A stretch of DNA of 64,000 bases from Acidobacteriota bacterium. GTDB taxonomy: Bacteria > Acidobacteriota > Terriglobia > Bryobacterales > Bryobacteraceae. Positions 7,791 through 60,493 of this stretch are shown piece after piece. The position numbers and the translations under genes were made by a program. The stretch spans positions 162,714 to 226,713 of the forward strand of contig JAFDVZ010000010.1 in assembly GCA_018268715.1 (NCBI GenBank), written 5' to 3'. Positions within the stretch are counted from its first letter, which is position 1. Each line of letters opens with the position of its first letter. The notes under the pieces were generated by a model that saw only the letters and a program-made list of their open reading frames with translations, made no database searches and had not been told where the DNA came from.

Positions 7791-7798
7791 TCAGGAAG

Positions 7799-8773
7799 TT
7801 AGCGGGCCCCGTCGGCCACCTGCGGCTCGCGCCGGGTGCGCACTTCGCGCACCGCGTAGATTCGCCGGCCCTGGCTCTCGAAGTAGGTTCGAATCAGCAC
7901 TTCCCCGAGCAGCCCCGTGCAGAACATCATGATCCCGGCCAACAGCAGCAGCGCGCCCGCCACCATCAGCGGACCGTGCTCGATCACAATGTCGCGGCCC
8001 CAGAAAACCTTGTAGATGATGAGGTACGTTTCAATCGCCCCGCCAATCGCCACCGATCCCAACCCCAGGGCGCCGAAAAAGTGCATCGGCCGCGTGAAGT
8101 ACTTCAGCAGGAAGCGGATCGTGATGATGTCGAACAACACGCGGAAGGTGCGGCTCAAACCGTAGTGCGACGCTCCGGAGGCCCTCGGCGAGTTCCGAAT
8201 CGGCACCTCCGCCACCCGGGCGCCGTAGAAGCTGGCCAGAGCTGGAATGAAGCGGTGCAGTTCGCCGTACAGGTTGATGTCCTTCAGAACCTCGGCGCGA
8301 TACGCCTTGAACGTGGTGCCGAAATCGCGCAGGTTGACGCCCGACGCCTTCGCCATCAGCCAGTTGGCGATGCGCGACGGGATCTTGCGCGTCATGGCGT
8401 TGTCCAGCCGGTCCTTGCGCCAGCCGCTGGCGATGTCGTACCCTTCGTCGATCTTCTTGAGCAGGGCCGGGATGTCTTCGGGATCGTGCTGCAGGTCGCC
8501 GTCGAGCGAAATGACCACCTGTCCCTGCGCTTCGTCGAATCCCGCCGACAGCGCGGCCGTCTGGCCGAAATTGCGCCGCAGACGGATGACCTTCAGGCGC
8601 CGGTCCGTCTCCACAAGGTTGGCCAACAGGTCGAAGCTGCGATCGGTGGACGCGTCATCGACGAAAATAATCTCGTAGGGCTTCTCCAACCCTTCGAGCA
8701 CCGAAGTCAGGCGGTCGTAGAGCGGAAGAATAGCGGGCTCTTCGTTATGGATCGGAACGACGATCGACAACAT
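7799..8773 (-). CDS. Family 2 glycosyltransferase with two C-terminal TM helices (GtrB/ArnC-like)
   Basis: The 324-residue protein has a GT-A domain beginning VVPIHNEEPAI, with the DxD-type motif in ISLDGDLQHDPEDIP and the acceptor-side signature RNFGQTAALSAG. The N-terminal ~230 residues match dolichol/undecaprenyl-phosphate mannosyl- and glucosyltransferases. Two TM segments follow (FGALGLGSVAIGGAIETYLIIY and GPLMVAGALLLLAGIMMFCTGL). Such enzymes move a sugar from a nucleotide donor onto a polyprenyl phosphate at the inner membrane, for use in envelope glycan or protein modification. The donor sugar is unknown. It is divergent from the DUF2752 gene with almost no spacer. Confidence 0.9.
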   Translation of the reverse strand: MLSIVVPIHNEEPAILPLYDRLTSVLEGLEKPYEIIFVDDASTDRSFDLLANLVETDRRLKVIRLRRNFGQTAALSAGFDEAQGQVVISLDGDLQHDPEDIPALLKKIDEGYDIASGWRKDRLDNAMTRKIPSRIANWLMAKASGVNLRDFGTTFKAYRAEVLKDINLYGELHRFIPALASFYGARVAEVPIRNSPRASGASHYGLSRTFRVLFDIITIRFLLKYFTRPMHFFGALGLGSVAIGGAIETYLIIYKVFWGRDIVIEHGPLMVAGALLLLAGIMMFCTGLLGEVLIRTYFESQGRRIYAVREVRTRREPQVADGAR

Positions 8774-8818
8774 GGTGAATTCCCTATTTTACAGCAGCTC
8801 AAAGCGGCGCTAGTCCTT

Positions 8819-9118
8819 GTGTGGCTGGCCGTCACGGCGGTGACCGCCTCCGCCGCGGCCGCTCCGTTCCTGCTGCCGGACGCCGCCATCGCGCGCATCG
8901 CTCCCCGCTGCGAGTCCATGCGACTGTATGGCCGCCCCTGTTTCCTATGCGGGTCCACCACCGGCTTTCTCGCTATCGGCCGCGGAGATTTCGCCTCCGC
9001 CCGAAGCGCTAATCGGCTGGCCATCCCGCTATTTGCCGCGTTTTCGGGGAACGCCGTCGCCGCGCTTGCGTATCTCTCTGGGAAGGCGCGCCGTAGATCA
9101 GCGAAACAGCCGTTATGA
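8819..9118 (+). CDS. DUF2752 small membrane protein
   Basis: About 99 residues. The family signature C-x-L-C-G-x-T-T-G-F is present as CFLCGSTTGF, followed by the typical tail SANRLAIPLFAAFSGNAVAAL. There are probably two TM helices. No ATG exists in frame. GTG 8819 is the first ordinary start, but the homologous-looking hydrophobic region extends upstream to about 8786, where only a rare ATT is available, so the start is uncertain. The start region abuts the divergent glycosyltransferase start at 8773. DUF2752 function is unknown. Confidence 0.7.
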   Translation: MWLAVTAVTASAAAAPFLLPDAAIARIAPRCESMRLYGRPCFLCGSTTGFLAIGRGDFASARSANRLAIPLFAAFSGNAVAALAYLSGKARRRSAKQPL

Positions 9119-9128
9119 TGGAGGTCAT

Positions 9129-9377
9129 ATGCAGATCCTAAGCCTTGCCTGGGGCATATTCGCCCTGCTGGGTTTGTTTGTCGGGTTCATCCCTTGTCTC
9201 GGTGCGCTGAATTGGCTGAACATTCCCTTTTCGATCGCGGGCCTGATCCTCAGCATCATCGCTTACAATAAAGAACTGCCCGGACGACGTTCCGCCGCGG
9301 CCACCGGCATCATCCTGTGCGCCATTGCGATTCTGCTCGGCGCGAAACGCCTGGTGATGGGCGGAGGAATTCTCTAA
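9129..9377 (+). CDS. Small two-TM membrane protein
   Basis: The 82-residue, strongly hydrophobic protein has TM1 around ILSLAWGIFALLGLFVGFIP and TM2 around IPFSIAGLILSIIAYN, possibly with a third near the C-terminus. A short basic segment (KELPGRRSAAAT) lies between. The ATG at 9129 has GGAGG just upstream. It starts 10 nt after DUF2752 and its stop overlaps the next start (TAATG), so these three small envelope genes look co-transcribed. No named family was recognised with confidence; it resembles short DUF4190-like proteins. Confidence 0.75.
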   Translation: MQILSLAWGIFALLGLFVGFIPCLGALNWLNIPFSIAGLILSIIAYNKELPGRRSAAATGIILCAIAILLGAKRLVMGGGIL

Positions 9378-9685
9378 TGCAAAAACTGTTGCTCGTTCTC
9401 AGCCCTCTGGTGTTGCTGCTCACCGCCGCCTGCGCATCGAGCAAGCCGGCCGCTCCGGCGAAAGAGTATCATCTGACCGGCGAGGTGATGCGTATAGACG
9501 CGCAGGTTCGAAGCGCCACCATCAAACACGAAAAGATCGAAGGCTGGATGGAGGCGATGACCATGGAATTTCCCGTCCACGACGCCAAGGAATTCGAGAA
9601 ACTGGCGCCCGGCAAGAAGATCACCGCCACCGTCTATGTCAGCGGCGACGAATTCTGGATCGGCAATATACAGGTCACGCCCTGA
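9377..9685 (+). CDS. Copper-binding CusF-like lipoprotein
   Basis: The 102-residue protein has a lipoprotein signal with lipobox LTAAC (cysteine in LLLTAACASSK). A small beta-barrel domain follows with the CusF-type signature YHLTGEVMRIDAQVRSATIKH ... EGWMEAMTMEFPV. The conserved His of IKHEKIEGWMEAM and the Met pair of AMTM, plus the nearby Trp, are the Cu(I)-binding elements in CusF. It is probably anchored in the periplasm as a metallochaperone or copper buffer. No cusABC efflux genes are in the window. Confidence 0.85.
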   Translation: MQKLLLVLSPLVLLLTAACASSKPAAPAKEYHLTGEVMRIDAQVRSATIKHEKIEGWMEAMTMEFPVHDAKEFEKLAPGKKITATVYVSGDEFWIGNIQVTP

Positions 9686-9716
9686 CTGCAAGGCGCAAAT
9701 CGGCGACGGGCGTGAG

Positions 9717-11171
9717 CTAACTCGGTCGGCTCCGCCCGTCCGACTTCCATTTCTCGAGTAGCTCGGTCAGCCGCTTCACCACATCGGGGCGCGCCGAGTA
9801 CAAATCCCGCGTCTCGCCGGGATCGGCGGCGATATCGTATAACTCGCCCTCCGGCTCGCCCGCCTTCACCTCCAACCGCACCGGCTGGCTGAATCCCCCC
9901 GATCCGCGTCCCAAACTCAGCTTCCAGTTATCCTGCCGGATGGAAAACATCCCGTCATTGGAATGATGCACGACGGCCTTGCGAATTCCCCGCCCTCCCC
10001 GCAGCGCGGGCAGCAGGCTGAAGCTATCCTCGGCCGCATCCCGCGGCAGCCGCGCGCCGGTGACGTCCGCGACCGTCGCCGCCAGGTCCACCAGGCACCC
10101 TAACTCCCGGCTAACCGAGTTAGGACGAATCCGCCCCGGCCACCGGGCCATGAACGGAATCCGGTGTCCGGCGTCCCAGATGTCCGCCTTCATCCCGCGC
10201 CAGTTGGCGTTGGCGCGATGCGCATATTTCGCTTTATCCTCCGGCGTCCAATGCGCCCCGTTGTCGGAGGTGAACACGAGCAGTGTATTCCGGCCGAGGT
10301 TCGACTCATCGAGAAGCCGCGTCACCTGCCCAACCACATCGTCCACCTGCGTCACGAAGTCCCCGTAGTCGCCCGCCTTCGACCGACCGCGGAACCCCTG
10401 CACGGGAACCCAGGGCGTATGGGGCGCCGTCAGCGCGAAGTAGAAGAAGAAGGGTTGCCTCGGCGTGTTCGCCCGCTCCCGCAGCACGTCGAGAGCCTTC
10501 GCCGTCAGCTTCGGAAGCGTGTCTTCGACACGGAATCCCGGCGCCGCCGCACCGGCCCGCCAGAACACTCCGCGCGGACTGTTTTGCCCGTCGGTGCGGC
10601 CGGTAGGCGGGGCCTCCACGCGCTCGTTTTCGAAGTACACATACGGGTCCATGTCGAGCGACGCCGGAATGCCGTAGTAGTAGTCGAACCCGTGATTGCG
10701 GGGCCCCGGCGTCAGAGGACTCGAATAGTCGGTCTGCTCCTTCGTCCCCAGCCCCAGATGCCATTTCCCAACACCGGCCGTGTAGTAACCCTGGGACTTC
10801 AATAACCCGGGCACGGTCAACCGGTCCGGCTCGATCAGATTCGGCGAATACCCGTTCAGCACGCCCTTCTTCAGCCGTGACCGCCAGCAATAACGTCCGG
10901 TCATGACGCCATAGCGGGTCGGAGTGCATACGGCCGACGGGGAGTGCATATCGGTGAATCGCACCCCCTGGCTCGCCAGTCGGTCCGCGTTGGGCGTCGG
11001 CGCCGCCGATTCCCGGTTGTAGCAGCCCAGATCGCCCCACCCCAGATCGTCCGCCAGGATATACACGATGTTGGGCCGCTCCCGCACCGCCCACAGCCGC
11101 CCGGCCCCGGCGAGTCCTCCGCCCGCGCTCATCAGGAACTCTCGCCGCCCCAATCCCCTGCTTCGATTCAT
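9717..11171 (-). CDS. Sulfatase (arylsulfatase-type), twin-arginine exported
   Basis: The 484-residue protein carries the sulfatase signature C-x-P-x-R as VCTPTRYGVMTGRY. Its Cys (about residue 82) must be converted to formylglycine to be active. The metal-binding DD of ILADDLGWGDLG and the later TSDNGAH motif are present. The N-terminus contains RREFLMSAGGG, a twin-arginine-type signal. I place the start at the ATG at 11171; an upstream ATG at 11192 adds seven residues of no obvious value. It probably removes sulfate from polysaccharides in the periplasm or outside the cell. No maturase (anSME/FGE) is visible in the window. Confidence 0.93.
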   Translation of the reverse strand: MNRSRGLGRREFLMSAGGGLAGAGRLWAVRERPNIVYILADDLGWGDLGCYNRESAAPTPNADRLASQGVRFTDMHSPSAVCTPTRYGVMTGRYCWRSRLKKGVLNGYSPNLIEPDRLTVPGLLKSQGYYTAGVGKWHLGLGTKEQTDYSSPLTPGPRNHGFDYYYGIPASLDMDPYVYFENERVEAPPTGRTDGQNSPRGVFWRAGAAAPGFRVEDTLPKLTAKALDVLRERANTPRQPFFFYFALTAPHTPWVPVQGFRGRSKAGDYGDFVTQVDDVVGQVTRLLDESNLGRNTLLVFTSDNGAHWTPEDKAKYAHRANANWRGMKADIWDAGHRIPFMARWPGRIRPNSVSRELGCLVDLAATVADVTGARLPRDAAEDSFSLLPALRGGRGIRKAVVHHSNDGMFSIRQDNWKLSLGRGSGGFSQPVRLEVKAGEPEGELYDIAADPGETRDLYSARPDVVKRLTELLEKWKSDGRSRPS

Positions 11172-11238
11172 GTCCACCTTGACTATACACAAACCCCGCT
11201 CCGGCGCCGTCCCGGCGGGTCATAATAGTCCCAGAAGA

Positions 11239-12099
11239 ATGACACCGAAACTCCGCATCGCCGCCATCACCGACGAATTCTCCCCCGACCTCGCCGTCGC
11301 CCTGAACGCCATGAAGCCCATCGGCATGACCGGCGCCGAACTCCGCGTCATCGGCGGAAAGAACATCATGGACCTGACCGACGACGAACTCCGCCGCGCC
11401 AAGGACCTGGTCGACGCCGCCGGCCTCGAAGTGATCTCCATCGCCTCGCCCCTGCTCAAGTGCGTACTGCCTGGCGCTCCCGACATCGACACGCGCTTCC
11501 AACAGGACGTCTTCGCCGCCAAGCTCACTTTTGACGATCAACCGCGCCTGGCCGAGCATGCCTTCAAAATCGCGAAGTTCTTCGGGGCCCGCATCATCCG
11601 CGTCTTCTCCTACTGGCGCACCGTCGAACCCGACCGTTGCTTCGACCCCATCGTGCGCGCGCTCGAAAAGCTCTCGGCCGACGCCGCCGGCCAGGACCTC
11701 ATCATCGGCCTCGAAAACGAACACGCCTGCAACATCGCCACGGGGCTTGAAGCGGGCCGCGTCCTGCGCGCCGTCTGTCATCCGAACCTGCAACTCGTCT
11801 GGGACCCCGCCAACGCGCTGGTGGCGGGCGAAGATCCCTTCCCCCACGGCTACAGCCTTCTGCCGAAGGACCGCATCGCCCACGTGCACACGAAGGACTG
11901 CCACATGGAGGGCCACAAACCCATCTGGGGGCCTCTTGGCACGAGCACCGTCGATTGGAAGGGACAAATCGCAGCTCTCATGAGCGATGGCTACACCGGC
12001 TGGCTCAGCCTCGAAACTCACTGGCCCGGCCCGAACGGCGACAAACTGGCCGGCTCGACCATCTGCGGCTGGAACCTTCGCGGTCTCGCCGCGGCTTAG
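11239..12099 (+). CDS. Sugar phosphate isomerase/epimerase, xylose-isomerase-like TIM barrel
   Basis: The 286-residue protein has AP_endonuc_2-type TIM-barrel features. The conserved metal and substrate ligands appear in order: IIGLENEHACN (Glu), LVWDPANAL (Asp), AHVHTKDCH (His/Asp) and WLSLETHW (Glu). This superfamily contains sugar isomerases, epimerases and myo-inositol catabolic enzymes, and the substrate cannot be assigned. The ATG at 11239 follows an AGAAG ribosome-binding site. It is divergent from the sulfatase with a 67-bp spacer, possibly linking both to saccharide catabolism (inference). Confidence 0.88.
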   Translation: MTPKLRIAAITDEFSPDLAVALNAMKPIGMTGAELRVIGGKNIMDLTDDELRRAKDLVDAAGLEVISIASPLLKCVLPGAPDIDTRFQQDVFAAKLTFDDQPRLAEHAFKIAKFFGARIIRVFSYWRTVEPDRCFDPIVRALEKLSADAAGQDLIIGLENEHACNIATGLEAGRVLRAVCHPNLQLVWDPANALVAGEDPFPHGYSLLPKDRIAHVHTKDCHMEGHKPIWGPLGTSTVDWKGQIAALMSDGYTGWLSLETHWPGPNGDKLAGSTICGWNLRGLAAA

Positions 12100-12157
12100 C
12101 CGAAATGAGAGGGGAGGGCGCCGGAACCAGGTCAATCAGACCCTCGTATCTCATTTC

Positions 12158-12817
12158 ATGAGTCACGAGATTCGGACCCGGCGCGGCGCGCTCGCCCTTT
12201 TCAGCGCCCTGGCGTCGTCGGCCATCGCGCAACACCGCAAGCTCGACGAAAAGGAAGTCATTCGATACGAGCGCCAGGAGATTACCGTCCCGGACTTCCC
12301 GGCCAAAGGCTACATTCTCGACATTGGCGGAGGCGGAGAGGGCGTTATCGGCCAACTCAAGCCGAACGAGACGATCGCCGTCGATCTCATCAAGCGCGAA
12401 CTGGAACAGGCCCCTCCCGGCCCGCTGAAGATCGTCATGGACGCCCGGGACCTGAAGTTCCTGGATAACTCGATCCCCACTGTCACGGCCTTCTATTGTT
12501 TGATGTACGTCGCCGAACCGGACCACGCGCAGGTCTTTTCGGAGGCCTACCGCGTCCTCGCTCCCGGCGGCCGGATGCTCATCTGGGAAGCCGCCACGCC
12601 GCGCCAGGAAGGCGAAAGGAAGTGGGCCGTCTTCCCCCTCACCGTAAACCTGCCGGGCAAGCAGGTCAGGACCGGCTACGGCGTGCCGATGGGCGCCGAA
12701 CCGCACGATGCGCGCTACTTCACTCGCCGGGCGGAGCGTGCGGGATTCGTCGCCCTCCGCCGCCAGGCCGCCGGACTCCACTTCTTCCTGGAACTACAGA
12801 AGCCGGCCGCCCGCTGA
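12158..12817 (+). CDS. SAM-dependent methyltransferase with N-terminal export-type segment
   Basis: The 219-residue protein is a class I Rossmann-type methyltransferase. SAM-binding motif I is YILDIGGGGEGVIGQL, the acidic motif II end is TIAVDLIKREL, and MDARDLKFLDNS is followed by the Ubi/methyltransf_11-type YRVLAPGGRMLIWE. Before the domain lies MSHEIRTRRGALALFSALASSAIAQ, which looks like a twin-arginine or Sec signal peptide. That is odd for an enzyme needing SAM. It starts 58 nt after the isomerase and may share its transcript. The substrate is unknown. Confidence 0.82.
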   Translation: MSHEIRTRRGALALFSALASSAIAQHRKLDEKEVIRYERQEITVPDFPAKGYILDIGGGGEGVIGQLKPNETIAVDLIKRELEQAPPGPLKIVMDARDLKFLDNSIPTVTAFYCLMYVAEPDHAQVFSEAYRVLAPGGRMLIWEAATPRQEGERKWAVFPLTVNLPGKQVRTGYGVPMGAEPHDARYFTRRAERAGFVALRRQAAGLHFFLELQKPAAR

Positions 12818-12819
12818 AC

Positions 12820-15429
12820 TCACTCCCACCTCAACGCCACCACCGGGTCCACCCGCATCGCGCGCCGCGCGGGGACCCAACTCGCGAGCATGGCCATCGC
12901 CGTCCATGCCGTCGCCGCCAGCCCGAACGACGTCGGATCGAAGGGGCTCATCCCATACAGCAACCCCGCCATCAACCGGGCGAGCCCCGCGCTCAGCAGG
13001 ACACCGACGCCCACGCCGATTCCGGTCAACGCCAACCCGCGCCCCAGCACCATCCACATGACATCGTCGGGCTGGGCGCCCACCGCGATCCGGATCCCGA
13101 TCTCGCGGGTTCGCTGCGCCACCGTGTAGGCCACCACGCCGTACAGCCCAACCGCCGCCAGCAGCATCCCCAACGCTCCGAAACTGCCGAGCAACGTCGC
13201 CTCCCATCGCACCTTCCACAGCGACTCCGACGCGTACTCCCTCAGCGTCTGCACCTCATAGATCCTCAGGTTCGGATCGAGTTCCCGCAGCGCCGCGCGC
13301 AACGGCGTCACGAAATCTCCCGCATTCCCCTGGGTTTCGACAATCACCGCCATGAATCCCACCCAGTTTTGCGCTAGCGGCCGATAGACGAACGGGCGCG
13401 CCGACTCGTCCAGGGATTCGTACTTGGCGTCCTTGGCCACGCCCACCACCTGGGTCAACTCGCGGGGCTTTTTCACATCGCATCCCGCCAGAAACGTCTT
13501 CCCGATCGGATCTGCGCCGGGCCAGAACCGCTGCGCGAGCGTCTCGTTCACAACGGCGACCTTCGGCGCTCCCTCCCGATCCCCAGCCTCAAACTGGCGG
13601 CCGCGGACCAGCGGAATTCCCAGCGTCCCGAAGTACCCCGGAACCACCGTATCCGAGCCGGTCCGCCTCGGCCGAGCATTCGGCTCCGCCGCCACGCACA
13701 GGCTGTCGGAGAAGTTCAACGGAACCGTATAACTCAAGGTGGCCGACCCAACGCCCGGCACGGCCTGAACGCGCTCCATCACGCGATCGAAGAACAGCCG
13801 CCCGGAGTCCGGCGTGTACTCGGGCTCGGAGATGTAGATGCGCGCCGCCAGCCGGCGGTCCATCTGGAATCCCGGGTCGATATCCCGGGCCCTTCCCAAC
13901 GCCCGCACCAGCAGCGTCGCGGCAATCAGCAGCGTCAGTGACAACGCCACCTGCGCGATCACATAGAAGTCGCGCTGCCGTCTGGGCCGCGAACCTCCGC
14001 TACCTCCCTGGACCCCCACGCCCGGATCCGGTCGAGCCTGTTCGAGCGCCGGCGCGATGCTGAACGCGACGGCGCTCAAAGCGGCCACGCACAGCGCGAA
14101 ACCCGCCACCCGCCAGTCCACGTTCATCTGTAAGGTAGCCGTCCCAATGTGGGGCAGGGCCGGCAGCGAACTCGCCAGCAGCCGGTTGGTCCAATACGCC
14201 AGGACGACGCCCACCACCGCGCCGCCCGAAGCCAAGGTCAACCCCTCGCAGAAAGTCTGCCGCACCAAACGAAGCCAACTCGCGCCCAGCGCGCGCCGCA
14301 CCGCCATCTCATGCCGCCGCACCGCCGAACGCGAAAGCAGCAGATTCGCCACGTTCACGCAGGCGATCAGCAGCACCACGCCGGTCACGGAAAACAGCAA
14401 CGTGGCGATCGGCGCCGCCACTTCCCGGACTCCCGCCATCGAAGCGCCCGCCGCAACGGCCGCCAACAGCGCTCCATTCGACGCCCGCTCACGCGGAAAC
14501 TCGCGCTGAAGTTGTTCGTCCAGAACCCGCATCCCCGCCTGCGCCTCTCCTACGCGGACACCCGGCGCAAGCCGCCCGAACAGCCGCACGCGCGGCCGCT
14601 CCCACCCGCCGCCATTCGCCAACAGCTCCCGCACGTAAGGCTGCGAAAGAAACGGAGTCCACACCTTGGCCGTATGCGGAGGCGAAACGCCCACAAATCC
14701 CGGCGGCGCCACGCCCACCACGCGATACCGCTGCGCCTCGATCCGGATCCGCTTCCCGATCGCTTCCGGACTCCGCCCGAACCGTTCCGTCCACACCCCG
14801 TCGCTGATCACAGCCACCGGCTCGGCCCCGATGCGATCGTCCTCCGGCGTGAACCAGCGCCCAGCCTGGGCTGGAATTCGCAGCACATTGGCGAAATTCG
14901 CCGTAACGGCCTCGCCCATCACAATCTGGCTCGACCCTTCGGCGTCGAGCGACGTGGGAACATCGTCGTACGCCGTGAGTCCGGCAAACATCGCGCCGCT
15001 CCGCCGTTCGAACTCCAGGTAATCGCGCCAGGAGCACGTCATCTGCTCGCGCTCCCGCGTCACCGCCACCACGCGATCGGATTCCGGCACAGGCAGATTC
15101 CGCCAAAACAGCTCGTGGACCATGGTGAACACGGTCGCGTTCACCCCGATTCCCAACCCCAGGCAGACCATCGCCGTCAGCGCGTAACCGGGGTTCCGCC
15201 GCATGATCCGCGCCGCCAGGTGGAAGTCCTGAAACAGGTCCGGAGCGCTCAGCCGGTAAGGTGACAACCGCACCGCGAAGCAGCTCAACACCTGGCGCCA
15301 GTACCACAGACGGCCGCCGCCTCGCGCCTCGAACTCCTCACGCAGATCGCCCACGATGACGTCGGCCTCGCGCCCGCCCACCAGCCGCTTCAACACCGAT
15401 TCAGCAATTCGAGGAGGTTGGTTAGGCAA
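12820..15429 (-). CDS. MacB/FtsX-type duplicated 'orphan' ABC permease (ADOP family)
   Basis: The ~869-residue protein has a short conserved N-terminal module with ADVIVGDLREEFE. Two MacB-PCD/FtsX units follow: a TM, a periplasmic core (VTREREQMTCSWRDYLEF), then an FtsX TM block with ALLFSVTGVVLLIACVNVANLLLSR and later RTREIGIRIAVGAQPDDV. This is the architecture of acidobacterial duplicated orphan permeases, which lack an attached ATPase gene. TTG 15429 is chosen because an AAGGGGGTG ribosome-binding site precedes it and the conserved LPNQPPRIAE module begins there. The frame runs back to 15531, but that part overlaps the PadR gene. The 8-nt overlap with padR implies joint expression. Confidence 0.9.
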   Translation of the reverse strand: MPNQPPRIAESVLKRLVGGREADVIVGDLREEFEARGGGRLWYWRQVLSCFAVRLSPYRLSAPDLFQDFHLAARIMRRNPGYALTAMVCLGLGIGVNATVFTMVHELFWRNLPVPESDRVVAVTREREQMTCSWRDYLEFERRSGAMFAGLTAYDDVPTSLDAEGSSQIVMGEAVTANFANVLRIPAQAGRWFTPEDDRIGAEPVAVISDGVWTERFGRSPEAIGKRIRIEAQRYRVVGVAPPGFVGVSPPHTAKVWTPFLSQPYVRELLANGGGWERPRVRLFGRLAPGVRVGEAQAGMRVLDEQLQREFPRERASNGALLAAVAAGASMAGVREVAAPIATLLFSVTGVVLLIACVNVANLLLSRSAVRRHEMAVRRALGASWLRLVRQTFCEGLTLASGGAVVGVVLAYWTNRLLASSLPALPHIGTATLQMNVDWRVAGFALCVAALSAVAFSIAPALEQARPDPGVGVQGGSGGSRPRRQRDFYVIAQVALSLTLLIAATLLVRALGRARDIDPGFQMDRRLAARIYISEPEYTPDSGRLFFDRVMERVQAVPGVGSATLSYTVPLNFSDSLCVAAEPNARPRRTGSDTVVPGYFGTLGIPLVRGRQFEAGDREGAPKVAVVNETLAQRFWPGADPIGKTFLAGCDVKKPRELTQVVGVAKDAKYESLDESARPFVYRPLAQNWVGFMAVIVETQGNAGDFVTPLRAALRELDPNLRIYEVQTLREYASESLWKVRWEATLLGSFGALGMLLAAVGLYGVVAYTVAQRTREIGIRIAVGAQPDDVMWMVLGRGLALTGIGVGVGVLLSAGLARLMAGLLYGMSPFDPTSFGLAATAWTAMAMLASWVPARRAMRVDPVVALRWE

Positions 15430-26114: not shown

Positions 26115-29100
26115 ATGAACACCGTCGATGTCCTGAACCACTATTTACGGGCCGCTGAGCGGCGGCTCAGGGTGTTTGCACTTTCGCGAGGGGCCGCCGT
26201 AACCTCGCTGGTCGCCTTGGCGCTGACCGTGGTCCTGGCTGTCATCGCCAACCAGTTCGCCTTCTCCTCGGGCGTCGTCCTCGCCTCGCGTTTACTGCTG
26301 TTTTTCGCGCTCGCCTCCGCCATCGCCTTTGCCGCGGTCATACCGTACCTGCGCACGAACCGCCGGAACGCCGCCCGGCGGGTCGAGCAGAAGTACCCGG
26401 AGTTCCAGCAGCGCCTTCTCACCTTCGCCGAACGCAAGGACGCCGGGGAGAACCCGTTCCTCGCCCTGCTCGCTTCGGAGACGGCGGAAGTAGCGCGCCG
26501 CGCCGAACCGGTTCAGATCGCTCCGCCCCGCTCGCTGTTTGCCTGGATCGCCTCCGCCGCCGGCGCGGTCGGCGTGCTGGCCTGGCTCATCGTCGCCGGT
26601 CCCGGCTATCTGGGCTACGGCGCCAATCTCCTGTGGGCGGGTCCGCCCAGGCCCGGCTCAGCCCCGCTCTACGACATCGTGGTAACCCCCGGCGATCAAA
26701 CCGTCCGCCGTCGGTCCGATCAACTCATCACCGCCCGCCTTGTCGGATTCGATAACAAGCAGGTTCGTCTCAAGGCCCGGTTCGGGACCGGCGCGCGTTG
26801 GGAAGAGGTCGCCATGCAGCCCCAAACCGGCTCCGGCGTCTATGAGTTTCTGTTCGCGGCCCTTCCTGACTCGGTGGAATATTACGTCGAATCTCGCGGA
26901 GTCCGTTCTAAGTCCCATCAGTTAACCGTCGTGGACCTTCCGGGAGTCAAGAACTTCCGGGTCACTTATCATTACCCGGCCTGGTCCGGCATGAAGGACC
27001 ACACGGAGGATCCCGGCGGCGACCTCCGCGCCGTCGAAGGGACCACCGCCGAAATCAACGTCACCACCGACGCCCCCATCTCCACCGCGGTGATCGCGCT
27101 CGACGATGGCGCGAGAATCAAACTCGAAGGCTCCGGCGTCACCCTGCGCGCCAGTGTCCCCATCGCCAAGGACGGCATGTACCACTTCGCGGCCATTGAC
27201 CGAGACCAGCCCGTCCGCCTCAGCGAGGATTACTTCATCGAAGCCCGCAAGGACGGCCCGCCCGTGGTGAAACTCACCCGCCCCGGCCGCGACGCCAAGG
27301 TCAACCCGATCGAAGAAGTGCCCCTGGCGGTCGAAGCCGAGGACGATTTCGGCCTCACCTCCGTCCAACTGCATTACTCGGTGAACGGCGGCGACGAGAA
27401 GACGGTAAACGTCGGCGCCGCGAACGGTTTGAAACATATCGAGGGCGCCTCGTTGTTGGCGCTCGAGGACTACAAACTCACTCCTGGCGACATCGTCTCC
27501 GTCTACGCCACCGCCAAGGACGCCCGCTCCACGACGCGCACCGACATCTTTTTCATTGAAGCGCAGCCCTTCGAGCGCGAGTACTCGCAGTCCCAGCAGG
27601 CCGGCGGCGGCGGGGGAGGCGGCGGCGACCAGGACCAGGAGAGCCGCATCTCTGCCCGCCAGAAGGAAATCATCGCCGCCACCTGGAACGAGTTGAAGGG
27701 GCGGGCGTCGCAGAGCCCGTCGGAATCGAGTGAAAACGCCCGCTTCCTCACCGACGTTCAGACCAAGCTGCGCGACCAGGCCCAGTCCATGTCGCAGCGC
27801 ACCAAGAGCCGCGCCCTGGCCGGCACCAATCAGGAGTTTCAAAGCTTCGTCAAGAGCATGGATGAAGCCGTCAAGGAGATGTCCACCGCGGCCGACAAAT
27901 TGAAGTCGGTAGCCTGGAAGGACGCCCTCGCTCCCGAACAGCGCGCCCTCCAGCACCTGCTCCGCGCCGAATCGGTATTCCGCCAGATCCAGGTCGCCAT
28001 GGGCCGCAACGGCGGTGGCGGCGGGGGAGGCGGCGGCGCCGCGCGCGACCTCGACAACCTCTTCGACCTCGAACTCGACACTGAAAAGAACCAGTACGAG
28101 ACCGGCCAGCAATCCGCCTCGAGCGATCAGCGCCAGAAGGAGGTGGACGAATCGCTCCAGAAGCTCGAAGAACTCGCCCGCCGCCAGCAGGAACTCGCCC
28201 GCGAGCAGAATAAGCAGCAGCAGAGCTTCCAGCAGCGCTGGGAGCAGGAGCAACTCCGCCGGGAAGCCGAGGAACTGCGCCGCAAGATGGAGCAACTCAC
28301 CCGCGGCGAGCAATCCAGCCAATCGAGCCAGCAGCAGAGCGCGTCGTCGAGCAGCAGTTCGAGCTCCAGTTCGTCGTCGTCAAGTAGCAGTTCCTCGCAA
28401 AGCGGCCAGCAGGGCCGGCAGTCGCAGCAGCGCAACCGCGGTGGCCAACAGTCGGCCTCCGATCAGCGTCTACGCCAGGCCTTCGACCGCCTGACCCAGG
28501 CCACCGACGACATGCGCCAATCCGCCGACTCCCGCGACCCGTCGAGCGCCGGCGCCCGCCGCGCGGCCGAGCGCCTCCAGGAGGCCAAGGACATCCTCCG
28601 CGGCATGCGCCACGAACAGTCGGCCGGACAGTTGGACGAGTTATCGCAGCGAGCCGACTCACTCGCCTCCGAACAGCGCGAATTCGCCAGCCGTATGCGC
28701 AAGACCTTCGGCGCGGGCGACGCGAGCCGCGAGCGTCCCGGCTTCTCCGAAATCCAGCAACTGGCTGGGCAGAAGGAGAAGATGGCGCAGGAGCTAGAGA
28801 ACCTGGAACGCGACACTCAGAAAGCGGCGCGCGACCTCGCCGGCACGCAACCAGCGGCTTCCTCCAAGCTCCGTGAGGGGCTCGGCGAACTCCAGCAGGA
28901 CGAAGTCCGCATGCGAATGAAATTCTCCTCCACCTGGATCCGCCGGGGACTCGGCGCGAACCTGGTGACGGGCGAATCGGTGGCGTCGATGGCGCTCGAC
29001 AAGCTCGCCGAATCGATCAAGCAGGCCAAATCGGCCGTAGGCAAGGGCGGCGACAAGCAGGCGGGTGACAATGAAGCCGAAAAGGCGCTCGCCCGCGTCG

Positions 29101-29801
29101 AGCGTTTGCGCGAGCGCCTGTCCCAACAAGCCTCCCGGCAAGGTCAACAAGGTCAAAGCGGGAATCAACAAGGCGGTCAGCAGCAAGGCGGCCAACAGCA
29201 AGGCGGCCAGCAGCAGGGCGGCCAGCAGCAAGGCGGCCAACAGCAAGGCGGCCAGCAGCAGGGCGGCCAACAGCAAGGCGGCCAACAGCAAGGCGGCCAA
29301 CAGCAAGGCGGCCAACAGCAAGGCGGCCAACAGCAAGGCGGCCAGCAGCAAGGCGGCCAGCAGCAAGGCGGTGAACGCGCCCGTGACGGAGCCCAACGCG
29401 GCGGCGAAAACTGGGGCGGCGGCTCCATCAACCGTGGACCGCTCCCGGCCGGCGTCCCCGACAACCGAGGCGGCGGCGAAGGCGCCATCCGCGACGCCCT
29501 CCACGACCTCCAGCAACTCCGCCAGCAAGTCGGTGGAAACAGCGACATCGGCCGCGAAGTAGGCGACGCCATCCGCGACATCGAACGCGAGCGCTCCCCC
29601 TTCGCCCTCGCGAGCCCCACCCTGAGCGAGCGCATCGACAAGGAGGTCCTGCCCGCTCTCGAGCAACTGGAAATGCAGCTACGCCGCCGCGTGGAAGGGG
29701 ACGCCGGGACTATCCGAAACCCCACCGCCGACCGCATCCCGGCTGGCTACAGCGACAAGGTGGCCGACTACTTCCGCAAGCTCAGCAAAGGGACGAAGTA
29801 G
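26115..29801 (+). CDS. Giant coiled-coil membrane protein (DUF4175-like), last gene of MoxR cluster
   Basis: The 1228-residue protein has TM helices near residues 25-45, 55-75 and 145-165. Ig-like/beta domains follow (FRVTYHYPAWSGMKDHTEDPGGDLRAVEGT...). A long Gln/Glu/Arg-rich coiled-coil region follows (~residues 500-1000), with two Gly-rich linkers, a long serine-rich tract and a 13-fold GGQQQ tract. The overall layout matches DUF4175-type proteins found beside MoxR/BatA genes. The ATG at 26115 has an upstream GAAGG. The low-complexity segments are encoded mostly by varied codons (AGC/TCG/AGT), except the GGQQQ tract, which is a true DNA tandem repeat. Confidence 0.82.
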   Translation: MNTVDVLNHYLRAAERRLRVFALSRGAAVTSLVALALTVVLAVIANQFAFSSGVVLASRLLLFFALASAIAFAAVIPYLRTNRRNAARRVEQKYPEFQQRLLTFAERKDAGENPFLALLASETAEVARRAEPVQIAPPRSLFAWIASAAGAVGVLAWLIVAGPGYLGYGANLLWAGPPRPGSAPLYDIVVTPGDQTVRRRSDQLITARLVGFDNKQVRLKARFGTGARWEEVAMQPQTGSGVYEFLFAALPDSVEYYVESRGVRSKSHQLTVVDLPGVKNFRVTYHYPAWSGMKDHTEDPGGDLRAVEGTTAEINVTTDAPISTAVIALDDGARIKLEGSGVTLRASVPIAKDGMYHFAAIDRDQPVRLSEDYFIEARKDGPPVVKLTRPGRDAKVNPIEEVPLAVEAEDDFGLTSVQLHYSVNGGDEKTVNVGAANGLKHIEGASLLALEDYKLTPGDIVSVYATAKDARSTTRTDIFFIEAQPFEREYSQSQQAGGGGGGGGDQDQESRISARQKEIIAATWNELKGRASQSPSESSENARFLTDVQTKLRDQAQSMSQRTKSRALAGTNQEFQSFVKSMDEAVKEMSTAADKLKSVAWKDALAPEQRALQHLLRAESVFRQIQVAMGRNGGGGGGGGGAARDLDNLFDLELDTEKNQYETGQQSASSDQRQKEVDESLQKLEELARRQQELAREQNKQQQSFQQRWEQEQLRREAEELRRKMEQLTRGEQSSQSSQQQSASSSSSSSSSSSSSSSSSSQSGQQGRQSQQRNRGGQQSASDQRLRQAFDRLTQATDDMRQSADSRDPSSAGARRAAERLQEAKDILRGMRHEQSAGQLDELSQRADSLASEQREFASRMRKTFGAGDASRERPGFSEIQQLAGQKEKMAQELENLERDTQKAARDLAGTQPAASSKLREGLGELQQDEVRMRMKFSSTWIRRGLGANLVTGESVASMALDKLAESIKQAKSAVGKGGDKQAGDNEAEKALARVERLRERLSQQASRQGQQGQSGNQQGGQQQGGQQQGGQQQGGQQQGGQQQGGQQQGGQQQGGQQQGGQQQGGQQQGGQQQGGQQQGGQQQGGERARDGAQRGGENWGGGSINRGPLPAGVPDNRGGGEGAIRDALHDLQQLRQQVGGNSDIGREVGDAIRDIERERSPFALASPTLSERIDKEVLPALEQLEMQLRRRVEGDAGTIRNPTADRIPAGYSDKVADYFRKLSKGTK
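29172..29366 (+). repeat. 15-bp minisatellite, 13 units, coding GGQQQ
   Basis: Thirteen in-frame 15-nt units (consensus GGCGGCCARCAGCAR) differ only at third positions. They encode (GGQQQ)13 in the coiled-coil membrane protein. Units 7-11 are identical, suggesting recent expansion; copy number could vary between strains. Confidence 0.95.
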
Positions 29802-42118: not shown

Positions 42119-45100
42119 CCGGCAATGAGGCCACGGCCAGTTAGCCGTGGAAAGTCGGAGGACCTGATCGAGATGCTTCGGCGCAACCCGCTTCAATGAG
42201 GCCACGGCCAGTTAGCCGTGGAAAGACCGTCGTGTATTGGGCTCCGTTCACGTCGATCTTGCTTCAATGAGGCCACGGCCAGTTAGCCGTGGAAAGCGAG
42301 CGCCCCGACCAGTGTTACGCCGAGCGCGACAGGCTTCAATGAGGCCACGGCCAGTTAGCCGTGGAAAGGCCGGGTCCGTGTTCGCCACCCCATCCGCATT
42401 GACCGGCTTCAATGAGGCCACGGCCAGTTAGCCGTGGAAAGATCTAACCCGGCCTTTTCGCCGAGCCTCGACAGGCTGCTTCAATGAGGCCACGGCCAGT
42501 TAGCCGTGGAAAGCCCCGTGAGGACCGCTTCCGTAAGGTCCGCGTCCGGCTTCAATGAGGCCACGGCCAGTTAGCCGTGGAAAGATTCCGTCTACAGCCG
42601 CAATCGGCGGCTCTACGTGACGCTTCAATGAGGCCACGGCCAGTTAGCCGTGGAAAGTCGGCCGGTACTGGCGTCACACTGCGCATCGTCGGCTTCAATG
42701 AGGCCACGGCCAGTTAGCCGTGGAAAGGTCGAGAGACTCAGGAGCGATGCCGCCGTGAACGTGCTTCAATGAGGCCACGGCCAGTTAGCCGTGGAAAGTC
42801 GGGATCGAACGGCCTGGTAAAGCGCACGGCCCTGCTTCAATGAGGCCACGGCCAGTTAGCCGTGGAAAGTTCCGCGTGTATCTCAACCGGAAGGTTCACC
42901 GTCGCGCTTCAATGAGGCCACGGCCAGTTAGCCGTGGAAAGGGTCTAGGCAAGGCTTCGGTTGTAGGGTACTTCTCTGCTTCAATGAGGCCACGGCCAGT
43001 TAGCCGTGGAAAGGTGAAATGCGATGGCTCCAGCTCGTCCGTCTGCATTGCTTCAATGAGGCCACGGCCAGTTAGCCGTGGAAAGGGTGCTGGAGGACGT
43101 GCAGAGTATGGGGAAAGACGTGCTTCAATGAGGCCACGGCCAGTTAGCCGTGGAAAGAGGTCCGGCCTACGCAAGACCCACGCCGGCGGCCGGCCGCTTC
43201 AATGAGGCCACGGCCAGTTAGCCGTGGAAAGATGGGCGTCATTGGGTCGTTCGCCAGCGTTCTCGGCTTCAATGAGGCCACGGCCAGTTAGCCGTGGAAA
43301 GAACCACCCGATACAGTCTCCCAATGCCGGCATTCTGCTTCAATGAGGCCACGGCCAGTTAGCCGTGGAAAGATAACGCCCACGTCGTGGCAACTCTACA
43401 GGCCGCAAAGCTTCAATGAGGCCACGGCCAGTTAGCCGTGGAAAGCGTCGAATGCGATCTACACCCATGAGGCTCAATACGCTTCAATGAGGCCACGGCC
43501 AGTTAGCCGTGGAAAGGTGCCGAAAAAGATGAAGGAAGACGATTTGTTTGTGTTGCTTCAATGAGGCCACGGCCAGTTAGCCGTGGAAAGTGGGGTCGAC
43601 CTGGCGAATAAACCTCTGCACCTGGGAATCGCTTCAATGAGGCCACGGCCAGTTAGCCGTGGAAAGCGAACGAGTACCGACGAAGAAGCGCCTGGTGAAC
43701 GGGCTTCAATGAGGCCACGGCCAGTTAGCCGTGGAAAGTTCACAGTATGTGCGAACATTACCGGAGAGTCAAGAGCTTCAATGAGGCCACGGCCAGTTAG
43801 CCGTGGAAAGTCGAGCAGGCGCGGAGGCTGCGATGAACTGCCGTATTGCTTCAATGAGGCCACGGCCAGTTAGCCGTGGAAAGCGAATCATCCTTGCTGC
43901 GCGCGATGCCAGCGATGCGCGCTTCAATGAGGCCACGGCCAGTTAGCCGTGGAAAGAGAGATCCGGTTTGCCATCCAAGACAACGGCTGTCCTGGCTTCA
44001 ATGAGGCCACGGCCAGTTAGCCGTGGAAAGTAAGGTTCAATATGCAGCCACGGTGGAGGACGTTAAGCTTCAATGAGGCCACGGCCAGTTAGCCGTGGAA
44101 AGTATACATACCCGACCACGCCGCCAGGGGGCGCATCGCTTCAATGAGGCCACGGCCAGTTAGCCGTGGAAAGACAAACGGAAAGGTCGGCATCGGGACG
44201 GCGTCCCCGGCTTCAATGAGGCCACGGCCAGTTAGCCGTGGAAAGTTTCACTTCCTCCTCAGGGGCATTGTTATCGGGAATGCTTCAATGAGGCCACGGC
44301 CAGTTAGCCGTGGAAAGGTAAGGTTTGCTCCACCGTCAGAGCCTACGATTCGCTTCAATGAGGCCACGGCCAGTTAGCCGTGGAAAGATGGCCTTAATCA
44401 GTGGGTCCTGGACTGCCCTATCTACTGGCTTCAATGAGGCCACGGCCAGTTAGCCGTGGAAAGGCGTTGAGACGCAGTTGGAGTTCCGACGCCATCGCTA
44501 GCTTCAATGAGGCCACGGCCAGTTAGCCGTGGAAAGGCGCCCCGGTGGCAATATCGCCGACGACGTGGGAGCCGCTTCAATGAGGCCACGGCCAGTTAGC
44601 CGTGGAAAGACTTGGGAGCGGCCACGAGGAGGAGATGAAGTACGAGCAGGGCTTCAATGAGGCCACGGCCAGTTAGCCGTGGAAAGTGAAGCGCCGGCGT
44701 TCAATACGGGTATCGAGGTTCTCGCTTCAATGAGGCCACGGCCAGTTAGCCGTGGAAAGCCCCGTCACCGCAGTCGGAGATCGCGCGGACAATCGCTTCA
44801 ATGAGGCCACGGCCAGTTAGCCGTGGAAAGGAAGGTCGTGGTGCTGACCTTGGGAACGAGCTGGCCGCTTCAATGAGGCCACGGCCAGTTAGCCGTGGAA
44901 AGACAAATTGGTAGAAGAGGCTTAAAAAAGGAAAACCAAGCTTCAATGAGGCCACGGCCAGTTAGCCGTGGAAAGCGGCGAACTGAGCAGCCGCCCGACG
45001 ATCTTGTTTGTGCTTCAATGAGGCCACGGCCAGTTAGCCGTGGAAAGCGACGATCCCCCGGTATCCCGTGCATTGCATCAGACGCTTCAATGAGGCCACG

Positions 45101-45696
45101 GCCAGTTAGCCGTGGAAAGGACGTCGTCGCGTGGCCCAAAGAGGAACCCGAGGCCGGGCTTCAATGAGGCCACGGCCAGTTAGCCGTGGAAAGGGACTTC
45201 GCCCCGCCCGCGCCGATCGCCATCGGCATGCTTCAATGAGGCCACGGCCAGTTAGCCGTGGAAAGCGGTCACACGTCGCAGACAGTCGAGGCCGGCATAC
45301 GCGCTTCAATGAGGCCACGGCCAGTTAGCCGTGGAAAGACCTCACCTCGTTCCTCCATCTCCTGGAACAAGTCGCTTCAATGAGGCCACGGCCAGTTAGC
45401 CGTGGAAAGTGGCCGTGGCCCCTCGATCAATTCCACCACCATCGTGCTTCAATGAGGCCACGGCCAGTTAGCCGTGGAAAGTCAATCGGCGTCACTATAG
45501 CATCAGCCAACGTCGGGCTTCAATGAGGCCACGGCCAGTTAGCCGTGGAAAGTCGCGAACCGCTGCGGAGGCTCTCCAGAGGGCATCGGCTTCAATGAGG
45601 CCACGGCCAGTTAGCCGTGGAAAGGCGGGGACCGAGCGCCACCTCATCGTTTTCGACGAGGCTTCAATGAGGCCACGGCCAGTTAGCCGTGGAAAG
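42119..45696 (-). CRISPR. CRISPR array, 50 repeats / 49 spacers, type I-G associated
   Basis: Repeats are 36 nt with starts ~72 nt apart; spacers are 34-41 nt. On the minus strand the repeat runs from CTTTCCACGGCTAACTGG to a CTCATTGAAGC end, with a 7-bp stem CCACGGC / GCCGTGG. Copies 2-50 read identical; the copy at 42119-42154 is degenerate at its first four plus-strand bases (CCGG for GCTT). I infer transcription on the minus strand: the repeat then ends in ATTGAAGC, a typical 5' handle, the degenerate repeat is at the distal end, and the cas genes lie upstream on the same strand. No duplicated spacer was noticed, though I did not compare all pairs. Confidence 0.98.
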
Positions 45697-45892
45697 AGCG
45701 CCCACCACAACTCTTCAATTATCAAACACCTGCCGGCCCGTTTGCGAGCACCCCACAAAAACCACCCTACCACCACCCTCCAGCGCTCGTCAAAATCGCC
45801 GCAAACCCAACAAAACAAACCTCCGCGAGCACCCCCCGCCAACCGCGCGCCGCCCCGCCGCTCGCACGCCCATCCGCTCGCCACCCCCAGCC
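45697..45892 (-). promoter_or_regulatory. Probable CRISPR leader
   Basis: 196-bp non-coding interval between the stop of csb2 and the first (newest-end) repeat. The minus strand is G/T-rich, with T-runs, a TTGACG and a GATAAT-like box close to the array. An 11-bp direct repeat GCGAGCACCCC (plus strand) occurs at 45744-45754 and 45825-45835. Leader identity is inferred from array orientation; exact promoter boxes are uncertain. Confidence 0.6.
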
Positions 45893-58625: not shown

Positions 58626-58786
58626 ATGTTCTCTCCTCAAGCGCGTATAAGCGCGTGTGAAGAGTATAACGCCATGCGCCGCGAGAATGTTACCCGAACA
58701 CGTTAGCCGTTTGCTCCGGTTATCGCGAATACAGGAGTGAAGGCGATTCGGACGAACCGCCCAATACCTTAGAGGAGATAACATCC

Positions 58787-59017
58787 ATGACGATCAAGAC
58801 CAATTTGAAAGCCGGCGGCCGTTCCTGGCAGCACAACCAGGCGGTCCGGGCGCCCCTGACCATGAAGACCGGGTTGAAAGCCGGCGGCCGTTCCTGGCAG
58901 CACAACCAGGCGGTCCGGGCGCCCCTGACCATGAAGACCGGATTGAAGGCCGGCTCCCACACCTGGCAGCACAACCAGCCCGCCGGTCTGCGTGTAAAGG
59001 TGCAGCGCGGATCGTAA
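58787..59017 (+). CDS. Tandem-repeat microprotein, three K-x-x-L-K-A-G-x-x-x-W-Q-H-N-Q units
   Basis: The 76-residue protein is made of three 23-residue units: KTNLKAGGRSWQHNQAVRAP, KTGLKAGGRSWQHNQAVRAP and KTGLKAGSHTWQHNQPAG, then a basic tail. There is no Cys, signal peptide or TM. A strong AGAGGAG ribosome-binding site precedes the ATG. I recall similar short K-A-G-G/H-N-Q repeat proteins annotated as hypothetical in Acidobacteriota and some other phyla, and their role is unknown. Repeated cores and small size recall multi-core peptide precursors, but no modifying enzyme or transporter is adjacent. Confidence 0.8.
   Translation: MTIKTNLKAGGRSWQHNQAVRAPLTMKTGLKAGGRSWQHNQAVRAPLTMKTGLKAGSHTWQHNQPAGLRVKVQRGS
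58805..58941 (+). repeat. 69-bp tandem duplication in the K-A-G-G/H-N-Q gene
   Basis: Positions 58805-58872 and 58874-58941 are identical over 68 nt (period 69), and a third, diverged unit begins at 58943. Identity including third codon positions shows the first two units are recent copies. Confidence 0.95.
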
Positions 59018-59098: not shown

Positions 59099-60493
59099 AT
59101 GAGGCAGTGGATTGAAGAAAAGACCGTGCTGGTGAAGCGCTTCCGTTGGTTCCGGGTTTGGCTGGGGCTGGGCGCGCTGCTCGCCGTCCTGCTACTGGCC
59201 AACTCCGTGATCAACTACGTGTTTATTTCGCGGGGCATGGTGGTGGATTCCCTGCGTCGCGACATGAGCCGGCAGACGGTCCTGCTGGAGCGCGAAGTGC
59301 GCGACGCCGGCGGCCCCGACAAGGCCGACCTGCGGGCGTTGGTCGACGAACTGGCGAAAGAGCGGAAAGCCGCCTGGATCACCGTCCGCGACCGTGGCGA
59401 ACGGGTGCTGGCCCATTCCGGTCCGGACATGGCCCGCACGTTCACGGACGCCAGGATTCGGGATTCCTTCATGAATCACGAGCCGCTGTTCACGGTGCGC
59501 GATTCGCCGGCCGGCAAGGTGGTGGTCGAGGTCTTCCGCTCCCGCGTCGGCGAGACCGAAATCGCCATGCCGCTCGACGGCGTGAGCGCCGCCTTCTGGC
59601 CTCTGCGGCGGAACCTCATCATCAACCTGTCGGCCGCCTTGGCGCTGCTGGTCGCTCTCGGTCTCATCGCCTTGCGGTTCGGCGCATATGTCCAGGGCAA
59701 ACAACTCGAACAGCAACTCGAGATGGCTCGCACGGTCCAGCGGGATCTGCAGCCCGCGCCGAGCCTGTCGCTGCCTGACGTCAACGTGGCGGCCGAGTGC
59801 GTGCCGGCCTGGGGCGTCAGCGGCGACTTCTACGACGTCTTCGCCACCGACCAGGGCGGGACGGCCCTGCTGGTCGGCGATGTCTCCGGAAAGGGCATGC
59901 CGGCGGCCCTGTTGATGGGCGTGATCCATGGAGCGGTGCGATCGAGCAGTTGGATGGAATCGTCCTGGCGGCATGAAGAGTCGACGCGGCGGATCAATCG
60001 GCTGCTGTGCGACCGTTCCTCCGGATCGCGCTTCGCGAGCATGTTCTGGGGCCATTATGATCCCAAGGCGGGCGTCCTGAGTTACATCAACGCCGGCCAC
60101 TGCGCGCCGTTGCTCGTTGGCCGCGACGGCGTCCGGCGGCTGGAGGACGGCGGCCCGGTGCTCGGGCTGCTGGCGCGGGCCCGCTATGAGCAGGCCGTGG
60201 AGGCGGTCAACCCGGGCGATGCGCTGGTGCTCTACTCCGACGGCGTGGTGGAAGCCGCGAACGCCATGGGCGAGGAGTTTGGCGAGAGCCGTTTGACCGA
60301 CGTCGTCGAGCGGTGGGCGCACGCTGGCGTCGAAACGCTGCGGGATGAGATCGTGCGCTCGGTCCGCGAGTTCGTGGGATCCGAGAAGTTGCAGGACGAC
60401 CTGACGCTGGTGGCGATCGAGTTTCAGCCGGTGGGCGTGGAGTTGGAGCCCCGGTTCAAGGACCAGGGCTCCGCCATGGCCGCGGCTATTTGA
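59099..60493 (+). CDS. Membrane-bound SpoIIE/RsbU-type PP2C phosphatase
   Basis: The 464-residue protein has TM1 (FRVWLGLGALLAVLLLANSVINYVFI) and a ~130-residue periplasmic domain. TM2 is LIINLSAALALLVALGLIALRF. A short linker leads to a PP2C SpoIIE domain: EMARTVQRDLQPAP, VSGDFYDVFATDQGGTALLVGDVSGKGMPAALLMG (metal-binding Asp residues), YINAGHCAPLLV and LVLYSDGVVEAAN ... LQDDLTLVAIE. It should dephosphorylate an anti-sigma-factor antagonist on an external signal. No partner anti-sigma or antagonist genes are adjacent. Its 3' end overlaps the convergent aminotransferase by 8 nt. Confidence 0.92.
   Translation: MRQWIEEKTVLVKRFRWFRVWLGLGALLAVLLLANSVINYVFISRGMVVDSLRRDMSRQTVLLEREVRDAGGPDKADLRALVDELAKERKAAWITVRDRGERVLAHSGPDMARTFTDARIRDSFMNHEPLFTVRDSPAGKVVVEVFRSRVGETEIAMPLDGVSAAFWPLRRNLIINLSAALALLVALGLIALRFGAYVQGKQLEQQLEMARTVQRDLQPAPSLSLPDVNVAAECVPAWGVSGDFYDVFATDQGGTALLVGDVSGKGMPAALLMGVIHGAVRSSSWMESSWRHEESTRRINRLLCDRSSGSRFASMFWGHYDPKAGVLSYINAGHCAPLLVGRDGVRRLEDGGPVLGLLARARYEQAVEAVNPGDALVLYSDGVVEAANAMGEEFGESRLTDVVERWAHAGVETLRDEIVRSVREFVGSEKLQDDLTLVAIEFQPVGVELEPRFKDQGSAMAAAI

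Follow-up and report, generated by a model that had tools for sequence, protein, structure and literature searches.

In double-glycine and PCAT systems such as ComAB, LahT and PCAT1, a C39 peptidase domain is fused to an ABC exporter and is accompanied by an HlyD partner and TolC-like genes. C39 peptidases cut after GG, GA or GS (PMC7018657, PMC6363468). The residue at position -3 was almost invariably alanine in a study of LahT (PMC6363468), and the usual double-glycine leaders bear hydrophobic residues at -4, -7, -12 and -15 (PMC7018657). NHLP/Nif11 (NHLM) systems have a three-gene exporter consisting of HlyD, C39-ABC1 and ABC2 (TIGR03794, TIGR03796 and TIGR03797). In yeast, the alpha-factor precursor contains tandem identical or nearly identical cores split by a fixed processing segment. 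ECF43/Hanks-kinase modules, including PknS-EcfK and PknT-EcfP, combine a kinase-TM-TPR receptor with an ECF sigma factor that carries a threonine in region 2.2. The Xanthomonas pair PknS/EcfK shows this kinase-TM-TPR plus ECF layout, and the cue of PknS is not yet identified (PMC13147305).

We describe here a peptide family of Acidobacteriota, one member of which lies in a stretch of 64,000 nt that was analysed as a whole (the window). The genetic ties of this family to a C39 exporter, and in many cases to receptor kinases and sigma factors as well, make it probable that its products are secreted peptides; they may be signals.

The focal gene and its peptide family

The focal ORF (58787..59017, + strand) encodes 76 amino acids and is preceded by a ribosome-binding site, AGAGGAG (58771..58777, +), located 9 nt 5' of the ATG. 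The translation reads MTIKTNLKAGG-RSWQHNQAVRAP / LTMKTGLKAGG-RSWQHNQAVRAP / LTMKTGLKAGS-HTWQHNQPAGLR / VKVQRGS. The three units, of 23 aa or 69 nt each, occupy 58787..58855, 58856..58924 and 58925..58993 (all +). Unit 2 carries a 68-nt exact repeat of unit 1, positions 58805-58872 being identical to 58874-58941 at a shift of 69, and unit 3 has a diverged core, KAGS-HTWQHNQPAGLR, followed by the tail VKVQRGS up to 59014. The array scored 299 in Tandem Repeats Finder. All of this bears out an earlier note on this DNA, which had reported a 76-residue ORF of three 23-residue units, two DNA units identical over 68 nt and a ribosome-binding site; the tandem-repeat gene is confirmed. A promoter and terminator scan found neither.

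The focal ORF is no chance ORF: a family HMM built from relatives only recovered it at E=2.9e-19 among all six-frame ORFs in ~240 kb of its own genome, and the same HMM gave no second match in those ~240 kb. The focal genome (G000, 7.63 Mb, 99.8% complete) contains only one clear copy of the peptide gene. The pN/pS ratio between units was 0.32 for the focal gene, with a median of 0.22 over 22 genes, so that core codon changes are mostly synonymous; these ratios are biased low because the units were chosen by motif, and the units do span nearly whole proteins.

A whole-genome search with the focal protein first gave true homologs in two genomes (G030 and G024), and a second scan, seeded with the G030 member, added more loci, some of them in MAGs labelled Bryobacterales or Acidobacteriia. 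A single-sequence genome scan with the focal protein returned no relatives. Collecting homologues and counting their units, as the earlier note had proposed, gave 65 distinct family peptides with 1-15 tandem units and lengths of 15-367 aa. A single unit is present in 25 of the 65 and 2-15 units in the remainder, and the shortest members have 15-23 aa. The unit consensus is K-[ST]-x-[VLI]-K-A-G-(G/A/S...)-x(n)-[NQ]-H-N-[QE]. W-Q-H-N-Q, previously taken as the motif, holds for the focal gene, but the general form across the family is [NQ]HN[QE]. Non-repeating, non-conserved homologues had been named as evidence that would speak against such a repeat protein; this applies in part, as many homologues carry a single unit, but the sequence of the unit is conserved. 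The shortest members (e.g. MKLKTKVKAGALVDNHNQSR) begin with the segment that is repeated in the long ones, so that the long members look like concatenated short ones.

With a two-unit profile, 16-18 of 200 Bryobacteraceae genomes were peptide-positive, the 18 including weak matches in G131 and G200, and a Bryobacteraceae genome gave up to 43 profile matches. Scanning the phylum (396 genomes) added only one peptide-positive genome, G547, which belongs to another family of Acidobacteriota. The family is patchy within this phylum. The focal protein had no meaningful match in Pfam or NCBIfam, and a literature search that included NHLP and repeat-core RiPPs in Acidobacteria found no description of the family; within the libraries searched, it is undescribed, as had been surmised. 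If its products are exported as proposed below, this little-studied soil phylum has an unnamed family of exported peptides, some of them tiny and some concatenated.

Linkage to a C39 exporter and predicted processing

In G030, genes for HlyD, a C39-peptidase ABC transporter, a second ABC transporter (ABC2) and a TPR protein come after the peptide gene. HlyD, C39 and ABC2 genes were found near a peptide gene at 12 loci and also at L159, which comes from another family of the phylum. The exporter is orthologous across loci, and family genes lie directly upstream of it or near it in many genera. It is present in 34 of 200 Bryobacteraceae genomes, namely 14 of the 18 peptide-positive versus 20 of the 182 peptide-negative ones (Fisher p=2e-9, genomes being counted without regard to kinship); after dropping the seed genomes, p=1e-6. 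Four peptide-positive genomes have no exporter (two of those matches are weak), and the 20 exporter-bearing genomes show no long-repeat family member. G547 is among just 9 further exporter-bearing genomes in the phylum, and its peptide and exporter genes share one contig. At loci chosen solely for their C39 ortholog, tiny one-unit ORFs with the family head were found just 5' of HlyD (for example MKVKSNVKAGRAVWGA, MKVKSNVKAGKGLWGA and MKAKTKVKAGKLVANHNTVVR); those 376 kb contain 7 instances of the strict head motif, and their base-shuffled copies contain none.

The C39 residues Q11, C17, H97 and D113 are kept in 34/34 orthologs examined. With these residues, the family is accompanied by the kind of catalytic C39 exporter that double-glycine/PCAT systems require, and it shares with those systems the fusion of the C39 domain to the ABC exporter, the HlyD partner and the TolC-like genes. 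The order of HlyD, C39-ABC1 and ABC2 resembles that of NHLP/Nif11 exporters, and TIGR03796 was the top NCBIfam hit for the C39-ABC protein. Scores against TIGR03794, TIGR03796 and TIGR03797 all fell far short of the curated cut-offs (61/156, 165/853 and 121/709 bits, respectively), and we class the exporter, on its sequence, as a distinct subfamily with an NHLP-like gene layout. Unlike in NHLP/Nif11 systems, no Nif11 or nitrile-hydratase leader was matched in the focal protein or its relatives, and no RiPP enzyme recurs around the family, though one may be encoded in trans. The strongly recurrent neighbours of family genes are the exporter, HlyD, Ser/Thr kinase, TPR and ECF sigma genes only. 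The earlier note had seen no modification enzyme close to the focal gene, and none recurs around the family.

The focal genome encodes exactly one C39 (PF03412) protein, on another contig (C22). This protein is the ortholog of the peptide-linked exporter (63% identity), and its gene is accompanied by those for HlyD, ABC2 (56% identity), a TPR protein and two TolC-like OEPs, the HlyD, C39-ABC and ABC2 genes spanning 7647-13532 of locus L072; further family members were not found at this exporter locus. The focal peptide gene is outside the exporter operon. The earlier statement that no protease-transporter is close by is correct for the locus but misleading for the genome, because its single C39 exporter, encoded in trans on C22, is orthologous to the exporter linked to peptide genes. 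The gene is indeed free-standing locally; in many genera an exporter operon adjoins family genes or lies near them. An exporter can hence be assigned to the family even in this genome, in which peptide and exporter are unlinked.

We estimate a probability of roughly two in three (0.68) that the focal protein is a precursor in which small secreted peptides are concatenated, and that the C39-ABC transporter cuts it at KAGG/KAGS and exports the products. The idea of a multi-core precursor, already raised from the repeats, gains support from the 1-15 tandem units and from the linkage to the C39 exporter by both neighbourhood and co-occurrence. In each unit, a basic segment for recognition, K-[ST]-x-[VLI]-K-A-G, would precede a short core with [NQ]HN[QE] (RSWQHNQAVRAP or HTWQHNQPAGLR). 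The cytoplasmic precursor would be handed to the sole C39-ABC exporter, encoded in trans on C22, whose peptidase would cut after AGG, AGG and AGS to give peptides of ~23 residues. The C39 rule predicts cleavage sites at A-G-G, residues 9-11 (58811..58819, +), A-G-G, residues 32-34 (58880..58888, +), and A-G-S, residues 55-57 (58949..58957, +). The predicted products are RSWQHNQAVRAPLTMKTGLKAGG, RSWQHNQAVRAPLTMKTGLKAGS and HTWQHNQPAGLRVKVQRGS, or their equivalents cut one residue earlier, after AG; the freed peptides would exit through the ABC/HlyD/TolC-like channel. Such a precursor would resemble that of yeast alpha-factor in its tandem cores and fixed processing segments, and would differ in being bacterial and in relying on a C39 exporter, the predicted processing enzyme, in place of Kex2 and the secretory pathway.

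Like PCAT cargo, the family members are small and basic. Before the core, AG is followed by G, A or S in 74% of family units and 66% of first units. In the other 26% of units, AG is followed by R, K, L, I and other residues that misfit the GG/GA/GS rule. Unlike PCAT leaders, the family segment is basic, is only 10-11 residues long and is repeated before every core, and unlike PCAT cargo the family cargo is concatenated up to 15-fold. The hydrophobic pattern at -4/-7/-12/-15 is absent; the head MTIKTNLKAGG has K at -4 and T at -7, and first heads are too short for -12 and -15. Recognition, if real, is therefore of a different kind. As a C39 recognition element, the repeated 10-residue basic segment would broaden the substrate rules of double-glycine systems.

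Several members stand apart in sequence. A cysteine pair is present in each core of members at L088 (8727-10758) and L089 (9954-10250; G215), KICPNRNCAGAEEDPNHNQ and KVCTRTDGTCADSNHNQ, which are possibly disulfide-bearing. Divergent members of the NHVE type, which have KTKKQLNVKT as an additional segment, occur at L180 (4555-5478; G082), adjoined by an ECF sigma gene and a kinase gene. At L118, L119 and L122, 16-residue ORFs ending in WGA, WAS or WDS stand directly 5' of HlyD; a cut after AG would free only 6 residues from them, e.g. KGLWGA.

Kinase and sigma factor neighbours in relatives

In G082, an ECF gene lies within 4 kb of the peptide gene in 8 of 10 independently found peptide contigs, versus ~3% expected from the 47 ECF genes in 11.9 Mb of this genome. 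A TM scan placed a single strong TM helix between the kinase and TPR domains of peptide-adjacent kinases. The ECF factors near peptides contain L-[QA]-P-T-A in region 2.2, which matches the phospho-Thr position of ECF43 factors (PMC13147305). Complete clusters were also found: L159 has the order ECF-STK-peptide-TPR-HlyD-C39-ABC2, with units ending in LQHNK, close to the focal WQHNQ, and the same genes are present in another order at L092 and L093. By domain layout and motif, these neighbours in relatives look like ECF43-type kinase/sigma modules; unlike in PknS-EcfK modules, a peptide gene and exporter lie within or beside them.

Clusters such as L159 suggest that the peptides are ligands of the neighbouring receptor kinases, and a signalling role is plausible. 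In relatives, neighbouring TPR-ectodomain Ser/Thr kinases acting on ECF sigma factors would probably either have the peptides as their ligands or control their expression. Signalling would extend the export explanation rather than compete with it, one exporter serving many peptide-kinase-sigma modules, in keeping with the single exporter and the many peptide loci per genome. It can be proposed only tentatively that every exported peptide is sensed by the extracytoplasmic TPR domain of the single-pass kinase next to it, and that this kinase then phosphorylates the adjacent ECF factor. The ECF proximity in G082, the receptor layout shared with PknS, the region 2.2 threonine and the complete clusters argue for it. 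In the reverse direction, however, a peptide gene was present at just 3 of 20 other G082 ECF loci, and the 8 ECF loci of the focal genome yielded no further family member. Most ECF/STK pairs in G082 and all those in G000 have no peptide gene, so that the role of kinase and ECF may simply be to control export genes; at the focal locus, no kinase or ECF gene neighbours the peptide gene. More speculative still is a multi-channel pheromone system, in which concatenated precursors share one C39 exporter and each peptide has its own TPR-kinase that activates a phosphorylation-dependent ECF factor. If true, it would supply the missing ligand class for TPR-ectodomain receptor kinases; we know of no such ligand gene for PknS/EcfK. 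The linked modules make the question of what these receptor kinases sense directly testable.

At L174 (2384-3730; G082), the gene for a 448-aa protein has a 4-unit peptide gene on one side and an ECF/kinase pair on the other. Pfam gave no match to this protein, and none of the other loci examined encodes a relative.

Weaker rivals and other features of the window

Two weaker rivals concern what the peptides might otherwise be. C39/HlyD exporters often carry bacteriocins, and the family, with a median net charge of ~+3 per 20 aa and many paralogs per genome, could comprise unmodified basic antimicrobials of the class-II type. We regard this as unlikely: an immunity-like gene does not recur, the recurrent partners being kinase, sigma and TPR genes, and the cores keep a fixed [NQ]HN[QE], include predicted products of only ~6 aa (KGLWGA) and give no evidently amphipathic peptide. 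Less likely again is a structural role, in which the tandem units would stay uncut and, once secreted, assemble into a beta-rich fibre or a functional amyloid like Fap or curli. The Fap system also relies on a C39-type protease, and an AF2 model of low confidence (pLDDT 54.6) showed strand-turn-strand in each unit, with the amyloid FapC as its best, non-significant PDB match (E 0.13, prob 0.06). Against this, 25 of the 65 members have one unit, the shortest being 15-16 aa, the family is strongly basic, and no Fap or Csg-type partner is among the recurrent neighbours. Pfam gave no curlin or FapC match, nor any other amyloid-family match, and the fold search on the pLDDT 55 model gave no significant one. 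Least probable is a cytoplasmic, unmodified repeat microprotein that binds metal or nucleic acid and is unrelated to the exporter in the focal genome. The earlier note had raised metal or nucleic-acid binding, for which we found no support. In favour of this reading, a long distance separates the focal gene from the exporter, and its product is basic and rich in His/Asn/Gln. Against it, orthologs sit inside exporter operons in many genera, co-occurrence with the exporter is strong (the p=2e-9 above) and a stable fold is improbable for one-unit members of 16-23 aa.

Returning to the focal locus of the proposed exported precursor, a SpoIIE-type Ser/Thr phosphatase gene (59099..60493, +; Pfam PF07228, 2.1e-46) begins 81 nt 3' of the peptide gene. 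Its product has two TM helices around a Cache-like sensor according to a TM scan, sCache_3_2 scoring below the cut-off, and matches the sister genome G001 weakly, at 46% and in the phosphatase part only. A functional link to the peptide gene is unproven.

Elsewhere in the window, a CRISPR array at 42119-45697 has 50 copies of the 36-nt repeat GCTTCAATGAGGCCACGGCCAGTTAGCCGTGGAAAG with ≤4 mismatches. A 15-nt tandem repeat of 13.5 copies (29169-29371) encodes a GGQQQ repeat, which sits inside an ORF (26115-29801) for a 1228-aa membrane-anchored, coiled-coil-like protein.
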